Position numbers and translations under genes: made by a program. DNA of 64,000 nucleotides from Embleya hyalina. Lineage in GTDB: Bacteria; Actinomycetota; Actinomycetes; Streptomycetales; Streptomycetaceae. The DNA lies in the NCBI RefSeq assembly GCF_003967355.1, contig NZ_BIFH01000014.1:248001-312000 (forward strand), given 5' to 3'. Positions within the stretch are counted from its first letter, which is position 1; each line of letters begins with the position of its first letter. Below, piece by piece: positions 47,592 through 50,673 of the stretch. The notes under the pieces are model-generated. The model did not search any database. It saw only the letters and a list, made by a program, of their open reading frames with translations, and was not told where the DNA came from.

Positions 47592-47813
47592 ATGACGACC
47601 TCAGCCGTGACCCGGCGCATTCTGCCCACCAGTCCCTTCAATGTCCCGGTCGCTCCCATCATCGAGGATTTCGAACTCGGTGCTCGAGTGACGCACGATC
47701 AGTACGGACTCGGTCGGATCGTCGGTGTCGAAGAGGACATCGCGGTCACTGTCGACTTCGGATCGCGCCAGGAACGCATCTGCCGTCCCTACGCGAAGCT
47801 GAGCAATCTCTGA
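47592..47813 (+). CDS. Small conserved protein with Tudor-like fold signature
   Basis: A 73-residue protein. The second half (ELGARVTHDQYGLGRIVGVE, then AVTVDFGSRQERICRPYAKL) has the GxRVxHxxyGxGxV pattern found in small Tudor/SH3-like domains such as the C-terminus of UvrD/PcrA helicases and CarD, which bind RNA polymerase. Binding to a nucleic-acid machine is inferred. ATG 47592 is preceded by GAGGGAG. A strong terminator follows 49 bases downstream, so it is probably a single-gene transcript. Confidence 0.8.
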   Translation: MTTSAVTRRILPTSPFNVPVAPIIEDFELGARVTHDQYGLGRIVGVEEDIAVTVDFGSRQERICRPYAKLSNL

Positions 47814-47861
47814 ACCAACACGACACGGTTCCGCACGTCCCGACACCACGCGGTCGGTACG

Positions 47862-47898
47862 AGGAGGCGCCCCCGGGACAACCGGGTCGGCGCCTCCT
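47862..47898 (+). terminator. Terminator after the Tudor-like gene
   Basis: AGGAGGCGCC / GGCGCCTCCT, a perfect 10-bp stem with an inner CCCGG/CCGGG extension, followed by TTC. It isolates the leuA control region from upstream transcription. Confidence 0.85.
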
Positions 47899-47947
47899 TC
47901 GCGTTGTGGGGCACGGCTTGTTTCGGACCCTGACACACACCGAGACA

Positions 47948-47960
47948 TCAGGTTGTCAGA
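47948..47960. promoter_or_regulatory. GntR-type operator upstream of leuA
   Basis: TCAGGTTGTCAGA. The reverse complement of the element before the adjacent GntR gene is TCAGGTTGTCTGA, a 12/13 match. It overlaps the expected -35 region of the leuA leader transcript, so binding would repress. Confidence 0.55.
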
Positions 47961-47970
47961 CAAGTTGTGC

Positions 47971-47976
47971 TACCGT
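47971..47976 (+). promoter_or_regulatory. Probable -10 element of the leuA leader transcript
   Basis: TACCGT (TAnnnT class) ends 7 bases before the leader peptide ATG at 47984, implying a leaderless leader-peptide transcript. There is no clear -35. Confidence 0.4.
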
Positions 47977-47983
47977 CCCGGAC

Positions 47984-48031
47984 ATGAAGCCGCGCGTTGT
48001 CCTTCTTCTCGGCCGCCGCGGCGGGGTCTGA
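47984..48031 (+). CDS. leuL: leuA leader peptide (attenuator)
   Basis: A 15-codon frame, [15 protein letters not shown], with three successive leucine codons CTT CTT CTC at 48002-48010 (CTT is rare in this GC-rich genome) and three valines. It precedes the 2-isopropylmalate synthase gene by 73 bases. Leucine leader peptides before leuA are known in Actinobacteria. Ribosome stalling at the leucine codons would decide between two mutually exclusive hairpins downstream. There is no Shine-Dalgarno; a leaderless start is likely. Confidence 0.75.
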
Positions 48032-48072
48032 TCCGACCGGCACCCCGCCGCGGGGTTCGGTGTCGCCGGTCG
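48016..48072 (+). promoter_or_regulatory. Attenuator hairpins before leuA
   Basis: CCGCGGCGGGGT (48016-48027) is perfectly complementary to ACCCCGCCGCGG (48042-48053), giving an anti-terminator. The alternative hairpin pairs CGACCGGC (48034-48041) with GCCGGTCG (48065-48072), enclosing ACCCCGC/GCGGGGT. The two cannot coexist. No U-run follows, so termination may be factor-dependent. Confidence 0.65.
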
Positions 48073-48104
48073 ACCCCTCCGAGGAGCGAGGACGATCCCG
48101 CACC

Positions 48105-49919
48105 ATGACCGAACACACCATCACCGACCGTGACCGTGCGGCCGGGCACACCTTCCCCACCCTGCGCACGCCCGCCGGCCCGATCCCCGAGGGCCGCCCG
48201 CACTGGAACCGGCAACGCCCCGGCACGATGCCGCACCACCGCTACCGCCCGGCGCACGAGCGGGTCCGCGTCGATGCCGACCCGGCCCGGCGGAGTTGGC
48301 CGGACAATCGCATCGAGCAGGCGCCGCTGTGGGTCCCGGTGGACCTGCGCGACGGCAACCAGGCGCTGGCCGAACCGATGGACCCCGTACGCAAGCGGCG
48401 GATGTTCGACCTGCTGGTGGCGATGGGCTACAAGGAGATCGAGGTCGGTTATCCCTCGGCGAGCCGGGCCGACTTCGACTTCGTCCGGCATCTGGCGGAG
48501 AACGACGCGGTACCGGACGACGTCACCGTCGTGGTCTTCACCGCCGCGCGGACCGACCTGATCGAACGTACGCACCAATCGATCGAGGGCCTGCCGCACG
48601 CCGTCGTACACATGTACACCGCGACCGCGCCGACGTGGCGCGAGGTCGTGCTCGGCCACGACCGGGCCGCGCTGCACGCGCTGATCCTGGCCGGCGCGAA
48701 GGACGTGGCACGCGGCGCCGACGCGCGACCCGGGGCGGACATCCGGTTCCAGTTCTCGCCGGAGGTGTTCAACCTGACCGAGCCCGACTACGTCCTGGAG
48801 GTGTGCGACAGCCTCACCGAACTGTGGGACGCGAGCCCGGACCGGCCGGTGATCCACAACCTGCCGGCCACGGTCGAGATCGCCACGCCGAACGTGTACG
48901 CGGACCAGATCGAGTACATGCACCGCCATCTGGCCCGCCGGGACGCGGTCGTGCTGTCCGTGCATCCGCACAACGACCGGGGGACGGGCGTCGCGTGCGC
49001 CGAGTCGGCACTGCTCGCGGGGGCGCAGCGGATCGAGGGCTGCCTGTTCGGCAACGGTGAGCGGACCGGCAACGTGGACCTGGTCACGCTCGCGCTGAAC
49101 CTGTACACGCAGGGGGTGGATCCGATGATCGACTTCTCCGACATCGACGAGATCCGACGCACGGTGGAGTACGCGAACCGGATCGATGTGCACGCCCGGC
49201 ATCCGTACGGCGGGGATCTGGTCCACACCGCGTTCTCCGGCACGCACCAGGACGCGATCAGGAAGGGCTTCGCGCACCACGCGCGCGAGGCCGAGCGGCT
49301 GGGGGTGGGGCAGGACCGGGCGCCGTGGAACGTGCCGTATCTGCCGATCGACCCCGCCGACCTCGGGCGCGACTACGAGGCGGTGATCCGGGTCAACAGT
49401 CAGTCCGGCAAGGGCGGCATCGCCTACCTGATGCAGAGCGCACACGGCCTGGACCTGCCGCGTCGGCTCCAGATCGAGTTTTCCCGCGTGGTCCAGGAGG
49501 CCACGGACGACAGCGGCGAGGAGATCGGCGCGGCCGAGTTGGGGGCGCTGTTCGGGCGGGAGTACCTGGAGCGGCGTACGCCGGTGGAGGTCACGCGGTG
49601 GCGAGCGGAGGAGCCTGCGGCGGGGCGGCATCGGTTCGTCGGGACGCTCGTCGGGCCGCTCTTCGGGTCGCGTGCGGTGGTCGGGGAGGGCAACGGGCCG
49701 CTGTCGGCCCTGACCGCCGCGCTGGGTACGGCCGGGATCCGGGTCGAGATCCTGGACTACGTCGAGCACTCGATCGGCGCGGGCGGGGATCGGCAGGCGG
49801 CGGCGTATGTGGAGTGCCGGGTGGACGGGGTGACCCGGTGGGGAGTGGGGATCGACACGTCGATCCTGGCGGCCTCGGTGCATGCGACGTTGTCGGCGGT
49901 GAACCGGGCACGGGGTTGA
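48105..49919 (+). CDS. leuA: 2-isopropylmalate synthase
   Basis: A 604-residue enzyme that condenses 2-ketoisovalerate with acetyl-CoA in the first committed step of leucine synthesis. The TIM barrel has [13 protein letters not shown] near residues 82-94 (metal/substrate region), [20 protein letters not shown] and [13 protein letters not shown] with the HxH metal ligands near 285. The C-terminal region (about 470-600) is the LeuA dimer regulatory domain that binds leucine for feedback inhibition. ATG 48105 is the likely start; GAGGA lies upstream but rather far. It is preceded by a leucine leader peptide and followed after 61 bases by a GntR regulator. Confidence 0.96.
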
Positions 49920-49980: not shown

Positions 49981-50673
49981 ATGACGTTCGGCCCCCTGCG
50001 CCGCAACCCGCTGGTCGGCCAGGCGGCCGAACGGCTTCGGGACCAGATCGCCGCCGGGCGCTGGCCGATCGGGACGAAGCTGCCCGGGGAGGTGGCACTC
50101 GGCCGGGAACTCGGCATCGGGCGGTCGACGGTGCGGGAGGCGATCCGCGCGCTGGCCGGTGCCGGACTGGTCGAGTCGCGGCAGGGGTCCGGCGTCTTCG
50201 TGATCGCGACCGAGCCGACGGAGGACCTGACCGCGCGGTTGCGGCGGGCGTCGGCGGTCGAGGTGTACGAGGTGCGCAACCTGATCGAGGTGCGGGCCGC
50301 GATGTTGGCGGCGGAGCGGCGTACGGACGAGGACCTGGCGGTACTGGAGGCCAGGCTGCTCGCGCGGGCCGCGGCGCTCGGCGACGACGAGGCGTACATC
50401 GACGCCGACATCGCGTTCCACGCGGCGATCGTGGCGGCGGCGCACAACGAGGTGCTGACGGACCTGTTCGCGGTGTTCCAGGTCACGATGCGCCCCGGCC
50501 TGCTGGACCTGTTGGCGGCAATGGACGCAAAGGACCTACGAGCCACTGCGGCCGACCCGGGAGCCGACGCCCACGCGGCCATGGTCGCCGCAATCCGAGC
50601 GGGCGACGCGGCGGCGGCCGGCCGGGTGACGGAGAAGGAACTCGAGGTCAGCCTGCGAATCCTCCGCGACTAG
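49981..50673 (+). CDS. GntR-family regulator, FadR/FCD subfamily
   Basis: A 230-residue regulator. The N-terminal winged helix is clear: RLRDQIAAGRWPIGTKLPGE, LGIGRSTVREAIRALAG and the wing GLVESRQGSGVFV. The C-terminal FCD domain (about 90-225) is all-helical with a metal/carboxylate pocket suggested by AYIDADIAFHAAIVAAAHNE and GADAHAAMVAAI. FCD regulators usually sense organic acids. The gene lies 61 bases behind leuA. An inverted repeat in its promoter recurs upstream of leuA, so it may couple leucine synthesis to a keto acid or branched-chain metabolite. ATG 49981 is the start. Confidence 0.92.
   Translation: MTFGPLRRNPLVGQAAERLRDQIAAGRWPIGTKLPGEVALGRELGIGRSTVREAIRALAGAGLVESRQGSGVFVIATEPTEDLTARLRRASAVEVYEVRNLIEVRAAMLAAERRTDEDLAVLEARLLARAAALGDDEAYIDADIAFHAAIVAAAHNEVLTDLFAVFQVTMRPGLLDLLAAMDAKDLRATAADPGADAHAAMVAAIRAGDAAAAGRVTEKELEVSLRILRD

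Follow-up and report, generated by a model that had tools for sequence, protein, structure and literature searches.

The leuA gene of the window, that is, of the whole stretch of 64,000 nucleotides of Embleya hyalina DNA that was analysed, is preceded by a copy of the LEU element, a leader of a known kind, and its features make it probable that this element is a translation attenuator of the leaderless, ribosome-mediated type: by stalling on the Leu codons, a ribosome would free the SD of leuA. We also lean slightly towards a wider reading, in which the LEU element would be a class-wide modular translation attenuator with one leaderless pseudoknot scaffold, whose sensor codons are at the same time the anti-SD and are adjusted from gene to gene (only Leu at leuA and one leuC, Val/Ile/Leu at leuB-ilvE); it would also drive stand-alone LeuA allosteric domains, and the actinobacterial leucine genes would form a ribosome-directed regulon.

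The LEU element was described upstream of leuA in most Actinobacteria by Seliverstov et al. 2005 (PMC1262725), as consisting of a leader that contains a Leu run, a pseudoknot, and a stem at the base in which the Leu codons pair with the leuA SD. In that paper it was found only before leuA and one transposase gene, whereas here it also precedes leuB, one leuC and stand-alone LeuA_dimer-like genes. Mutations in the leuA leader of Streptomyces coelicolor (Craster et al. 1999, as summarized in PMC1262725) had some effect, one inconsistent with classical attenuation. Passages of two transcriptome reports list a leuA leader in Corynebacterium glutamicum (PMC4046766) and in C. diphtheriae (PMC5784534), and a passage of another report gives, for Mycobacterium abscessus, a uORF that precedes leuA and is protected by ribosomes (PMC4974804); among the listings and passages returned by our literature search, no later mechanistic study of the LEU element was found. 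The element itself is thus already known; what is added here is a case for translational control, a possible explanation of the mutation paradox, and codon-retuned copies before leuB.

Architecture of the leuA leader

The features of this region are the following, all on the plus strand except the palindrome, to which no strand is assigned.

47953-47963, palindrome TTGTCAGACAA in the promoter, likely a GntR/FCD operator (conserved motif in type-B loci)
47971-47976, plus strand, -10-like box TACCGT, separated by 7 nt from the leader ATG (TANNNT spacing)
47984-48031, plus strand, leader peptide frame (a Leu-run leader is found by script in 214/243 leuA upstream regions)
47996-48012, plus strand, 5' strand of the base stem (RNAfold of 47984-48105)
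48002-48010, plus strand, sensor Leu codons CTT CTT CTC, also the putative anti-SD strand (codon counts; duplex of the Leu run with the SD)
48016-48027, plus strand, 5' strand of pseudoknot stem S1, within the leader frame (spacing, covariation)
48034-48041, plus strand, 5' strand of pseudoknot stem S2 (shuffle score; covariation in 188 elements)
48042-48053, plus strand, 3' strand of S1 (complementarity, shuffle score, covariation)
48065-48072, plus strand, 3' strand of S2 (shuffle score, covariation)
48079-48096, plus strand, 3' strand of the base stem, with the leuA SD region (GAGGAG at 48081-48086, GAGGA at 48088-48092; RNAfold)
48105-49919, plus strand, leuA, 2-isopropylmalate synthase with the LeuA_dimer allosteric domain (Pfam HMGL-like, IPMS_D2 and LeuA_dimer; NCBIfam leuA_yeast above cut-off)
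49981-50673, plus strand, GntR/FCD regulator gene adjoining leuA (Pfam GntR and FCD)

The initial annotation had proposed a 15-codon frame with three successive Leu codons, CTT twice among them, a perfect 12-base pairing and a strong hairpin, and all three were recovered. The frame runs from the ATG at 47984 to the TGA that ends at 48031, with CTT CTT CTC inside it, and CTT does not occur among the 46 Leu codons of the leuA body (CTG 36, CTC 8, TTG 2). The segments 48016-48027 and 48042-48053 are perfectly complementary (12/12), and the hairpin at 48034-48072 was confirmed by RNAfold of 48030-48075, with -24.8 kcal/mol. The pairing and the hairpin had been taken as mutually exclusive, which holds for the inner part of the hairpin (CCCCGC/GCGGGG), with which the 12-bp pairing competes, but not for its outer 8 bp: S1 (48016-48027/48042-48053) and S2 (48034-48041/48065-48072) cross as an H-type pseudoknot, therefore the 12-bp pairing is compatible with the outer half of the hairpin. 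A further stem, formed by the Leu codons with the leuA SD region (47996-48012/48079-48096), had been missed; in the RNAfold structure of the whole leader (47984-48105, -66.5 kcal/mol) it comprises 17 pairs, four of them G-U, and one bulge at 48087. RNAfold cannot make pseudoknots, and this nested fold contains the 12-bp stem and not the outer arms of the hairpin. The window copy therefore shares with the LEU element of 2005 its position directly upstream of leuA, the Leu-run leader, the H-type pseudoknot, the base stem with the SD and the alternative hairpin. With Rfam 15, no match above the gathering score was obtained in the window or in six loci that carry LEU or LEU-like elements; the matches to mir-1304 and ftsZ-DE had scores far under their gathering scores and were taken as chance.

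The conservation of this architecture was analyzed in 243 leuA upstream regions (240 distinct), which came from the genome of the window and 40 relatives, from 80 named loci, and from samples of the phylum and the class. The 214 Leu-run leaders were reduced to 200 with an acceptable leuA start, of which 198 were distinct; among the 29 regions without a leader by script, some are positioning artefacts (L157, L166, L189, L107) and some are apparently true absences (e.g. L015, L101). For the two-stem score, a null was obtained from 120 dinucleotide shuffles of 40 elements; the window scores 58 against a 95th percentile of 36.65, and this percentile is exceeded by 188 of the 198 distinct elements, the ten below it being left out of the covariation and spacing counts.

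In these 188 elements, both stems stay paired through two-sided changes in an alignment that was fitted to the pairing; for instance, S1 position 9 is GC in 99 elements and AT in 70, and S2 position 4 is CG in 101 and GC in 71. When 82 diverse elements were aligned with MAFFT, pairing in S1 reached 98.9%, with changes on both sides at 8 of its 11 pairs and 74 double-change cells, against 18.6 in shuffles (0/500). A second, compact MAFFT alignment (A2, 83 elements) gave double changes at five S1 pairs and none in S2, which is nearly invariant there, and further pair types over the whole structure of A2 were not above shuffles (401/500 as high). The spacing is nearly fixed, given that the S1 core begins 5 nt past the Leu run in 179/188 elements, and the leader stop lies 2 or 5 nt past the 11-nt S1 core in 168/188. 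The Leu codons and the pairings are hence kept in relatives, the conservation on which the initial annotation had made its proposal depend. The alternative inner hairpin, present in the window, reaches three or more consecutive pairs in 103/188 elements, with a mean of 2.26 against 1.93 for shuffled flanks, relatedness uncorrected; it was rejected as the main switch, because its excess over shuffled flanks was seen with relatedness left in and only 103/188 elements have the three pairs.

In 179/198 elements the end of a TANNNT box lies 6-10 nt ahead of the leader start, against 0-2 elements at five control offsets, which suggests that the transcript of the window begins at or beside the leader ATG. 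The leaderless leader peptide that had been put forward as a possibility is supported by this spacing and by a passage of PMC8079986, in which the leuA leader of S. lividans is reported as leaderless and without a typical terminator. Upstream of the box, the palindrome TTGTCAGACAA is likely the operator of the neighbouring GntR/FCD regulator, to judge from its conservation: of the 80 named type-B leuA loci (L059-L138), 79 have TTGTCNGA or TCNGACAA no more than 330 nt ahead of the leuA match, with a background in the rest of these loci of 0.044 per kb. A GntR/FCD homologue is found at 78 of these 80 loci, in 75 upstream on the opposite strand, in two upstream on the same strand and in one downstream, and in the window it sits downstream of leuA. 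This regulator probably constitutes a second layer of leuA control.

Leu codons as a putative anti-SD strand

In 69 named loci within the set of 198, the leader runs contain CTC 111, CTT 99, CTG 19 and CTA 1 times, that is, CTT or CTC in 210 of 230 codons, and the leuA bodies of the same loci contain CTG 2129, CTC 907 and CTT 23 times among 3151 Leu codons. The duplex between the Leu run and the SD has a mean energy of -13.19 kcal/mol with its own partner versus -12.19 with permuted partners (sd 0.17, z -5.7, 0/5000 permutations), and four control windows in the same permutation test gave z -0.7, -1.4, -0.7 and +0.2. At the wobble position, T or C is also chosen in favour of the own SD (p 0.019). 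A phylogeny-aware test on 98 disjoint sister pairs was only suggestive, with 54 pairs better, 39 worse and 5 ties (p 0.15). CTY codons may also be chosen since a single tRNA reads them; SD pairing and a shared tRNA could both be reasons for the preference, and the present data do not separate the two.

The effect of a ribosome on the SD was modelled by folding with the ribosome block as a constraint, pseudoknots ignored, in 194 elements (four of the 198 are longer than 200 nt and were left out). The mean SD openness was 0.39 with the block on the first Leu codon, versus 0.24 with no ribosome and 0.24 with the ribosome at the stop; it was above the no-ribosome value in 153/194 elements and above the at-stop value in 152/194, a modest gain that is absent in 41/194 as compared with no ribosome. 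When the run was replaced by CTG in silico, the mean openness was 0.37, and it was higher in 144/194 elements. In the window element, stalling raises the openness from 0.17 to 0.43; in L010, a neighbour with 97% identity whose SD region differs, the change is in the wrong direction (0.31 to 0.20), and in L011 the block does not move the openness (0.29, 0.29).

Distribution of the element and its copies before other genes

The source genome (12.05 Mb, 78 contigs) has three leuA homologues, and the element was found at the leuA of the window (model E 3e-12) and at that of contig 20 (E 2e-8), the next best match having an E-value of 0.24; the copy on contig 24 has no element by script. Unlike in the description of 2005, the window element serves a second leuA copy of the genome, one with its own GntR regulator. 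In three genus mates the window leuA is present with 97, 90 and 87% identity. In the class sample, LeuA was detected at E 1e-60 in 89 of 98 genomes, and the element precedes at least one leuA copy in 86 of these 89, and 92 of the 102 copies; in the remaining three genomes the model places the element at the leuA match (G163), just before the leuA match (G140) or near the end of another contig (G191). The covariance model, R1, was built from 82 elements, and matches weaker than about E 1e-3 were left out. It matches 191 of 197 sampled class genomes, some of which supplied training sequences, yet the mechanism of so widespread an element was left open by the 2005 paper and Rfam 15 has no match for it. 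Two loci that do not belong to the class (L147, L148) have leaders with a Leu run whose fold differs and stays under the pseudoknot threshold; a third, L149, has a weaker Leu-rich leader.

Some leuA loci depart from this pattern. The loci L015-L023 are second leuA copies, of family f3, without a LEU element by script, and in L015 the gene seems to start right after a promoter. In L169 (genome G178), reading by eye shows a single Leu codon, preceded by Val, ahead of the core in the leader of the leuA element (MLPRTTVLRRRGGA); here the scaffold seems to have been kept while the Leu run eroded.

The element was also found before leuB. In a survey of 70 of the 93 best LeuB places, in a few of which the upstream region is cut by the contig end (L414, L420, L422), it was present at E 1e-3 or better in 12 loci, the E-values being those for the stretches searched. 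Together with loci fetched earlier, 17 distinct leuB leaders were obtained, in which the sensor stretch mixes Val, Ile and Leu codons (e.g. MRHALILRCRGGA, MQWSVRILSCRGGAR, MRSVLVLIECRGEAY). Ile or Val occurs in 17/17 of them and LLL in none, and LLL occurs in 156 of 161 distinct leuA leaders; for Leu versus Ile plus Val, leuB and leuA leaders differ with p 2e-23. Two biases bear on this contrast: it is favoured by the selection of the leuA leaders through their Leu run, and counteracted by the use of a leuA-trained model to find the leuB leaders; the first is limited because the 92 of 102 leuA copies of the class sample do have the Leu run. The identity of leuB was confirmed with NCBIfam at the three loci tested, and ilvE was found downstream at the two tested; the mixture of Val, Ile and Leu fits an operon that runs on into ilvE at these two loci. 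A change of codons with the scaffold kept is what would be expected of a ribosomal sensor and not of a fixed protein-binding site; it is the strongest new support for ribosomal sensing, and represents an independent test of amino-acid sensing. Among the papers returned by a literature search, no prior report of such leader elements at actinobacterial leuB or ilvE was found, as judged by titles and the openings of abstracts. At several leuB loci, roughly 150-350 nt separate the element from the first SD-led frame further downstream, therefore masking of the SD cannot by itself account for the control at these loci.

Before other genes the element is scarcer. In one locus (L313, genome G223) a LEU element with an LLL leader stands directly before leuC; leuC as a general target was rejected, since none of 30 leuC loci (of 58 leuC places) had the element at E 0.01 or better and L313 is the only case. 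Genes for small stand-alone proteins similar only to the LeuA allosteric domain carry it as well: L314, above the Pfam cut-off, and L311, L321 and L323, below it, form one family (f6) with LEU-like elements, Leu/Val leaders and model E-values from 5e-8 to 8e-4.

Upstream of leuB, a conserved frame of 20-60 residues with a motif like ALQEAMDRRDNGG or ending in PDDN was observed by pattern in 19 of the 70 loci (L327, L331, L334, L345, L351 and others, L351 being from the genome of the window); at least L406 looks like a chance match, and in L335 the pattern missed one. Five of these frames were tested without an NCBIfam match, three of them also without a Pfam match.

Mode of control and alternative explanations

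In the mechanism that we consider probable, the transcript would start at the leader ATG and 70S ribosomes would load on its 5' end. When leucine is plentiful, the ribosome would pass the Leu codons, open S1 and end at the stop located 2-5 nt past S1, and the bare Leu codons would pair with the leuA SD, resulting in poor translation of leuA. When leucine is short, the ribosome would stall on CTT CTT CTC and mask the anti-SD strand, the pseudoknot of S1 and S2 would form immediately downstream of the ribosome, and leuA would be translated from a free SD. Across the spacer, the pseudoknot probably acts as a bridge that brings the Leu codons and the SD together. The stalling, the release of the SD, the direction of control and the role of the pseudoknot are all inferred from sequence, conservation, covariation, codon choice, spacing and the codon swap at leuB. 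In particular, the near-fixed spacing and the constraint folding fit a translational attenuation in which the stalled ribosome covers the anti-SD.

The cysteine genes of M. smegmatis are reported to follow this logic, with leaderless poly-Cys leaders that bring about translation attenuation by SD masking (cited in PMC13236596); such leaders of mycobacteria were described by Canestrari et al. 2020 (cited in PMC13236596 and PMC9094748). By what the citing passages state, these systems resemble the window element in the short frame, which in the window is putatively leaderless, in the run of cognate codons and in the proposed masking of the SD, and differ from it in that the window has leucine for cysteine; the conserved pseudoknot between the sensor and the SD may be a further difference. 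With the classical attenuators of Actinobacteria (the trp, ilvB and leuS leaders) the window shares the cognate codons in a predicted leader peptide and the alternative stems; in contrast to them, its sensor codons would themselves be the anti-SD, and a terminator scan found no intrinsic terminator (GC stem plus U run) within 47984-48105, the sole plus-strand terminator-like site in 47600-48400 being that at 47903-47917, which precedes the leader. Classical transcription attenuation is therefore unlikely, and the control point is likely the translation of leuA through the pairing of the Leu codons with the SD. The proposal of a ribosome-mediated attenuator in the initial annotation thus appears right in kind, as regards a leucine-sensing ribosomal leader, but not as classical transcription attenuation, given the absence of the terminator.

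Transcription could also be attenuated without an intrinsic terminator, if the position of the ribosome determined a stop before leuA by Rho or by pausing of the RNA polymerase. The leader frame and its strong stems suit the coupling of transcription and translation, Rho was suggested for the terminator-less cys leaders of Actinobacteria (PMC1262725), and the distance to the first SD-led frame at several leuB loci speaks for it. We nonetheless regard this explanation as unlikely: besides the lack of an intrinsic terminator, the compact conserved pseudoknot that fills the spacer would be a poor loading site for Rho, and the pairing of the Leu run with the SD would have no role, yet own partners pair better than permuted ones.

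A different proposal is that of the 2005 authors, who favoured a binding protein and put forward the orthologues of ML1624, citing their co-occurrence with the element and the outcome of the codon mutations (PMC1262725); the pseudoknot would then be the site of a regulatory protein, and the Leu codons would matter only as the anti-SD strand. The strong conservation of S1 and S2 agrees with it, but a protein site needs no reading frame, and the run is kept within a frame that starts in the leaderless manner and whose stop lies at a nearly constant distance; moreover, the scaffold is kept before leuB while the sensor codons change to the Val/Ile/Leu mix in all 17 distinct leaders. The present data hence favour ribosomal sensing, and a binding protein seems to us quite unlikely. 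If the sensor codons are also the anti-SD, the earlier codon mutations altered two things at once, and the paradox of the S. coelicolor leuA leader would be resolved, because changes in the Leu codons also destroy the stem that masks the SD.

Finally, a leader that merely boosts leuA translation by reinitiation, with no leucine sensing, as a passage of PMC4833913 proposes for leader genes near a main gene, is very improbable, since the leader stop and the start of leuA are a median of 76 nt apart (10th-90th percentile 67-112) versus the proposed 10-11 nt, a strong fold lies between them, the frame relation varies (78, 66 and 54 of the 198 elements) and the conserved CTY runs would be left unexplained. 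A frameshift or fusion into leuA was rejected on the same variation in frame, although in the window the +1 frame is open into leuA.

A leader of another type was observed in genome G140 (L324), where the peptide MQVELLLSPPR is followed by a GC hairpin and a T run, before a gene that we take from its appearance to be leuS; this arrangement is likely a classical attenuator with Leu codons.
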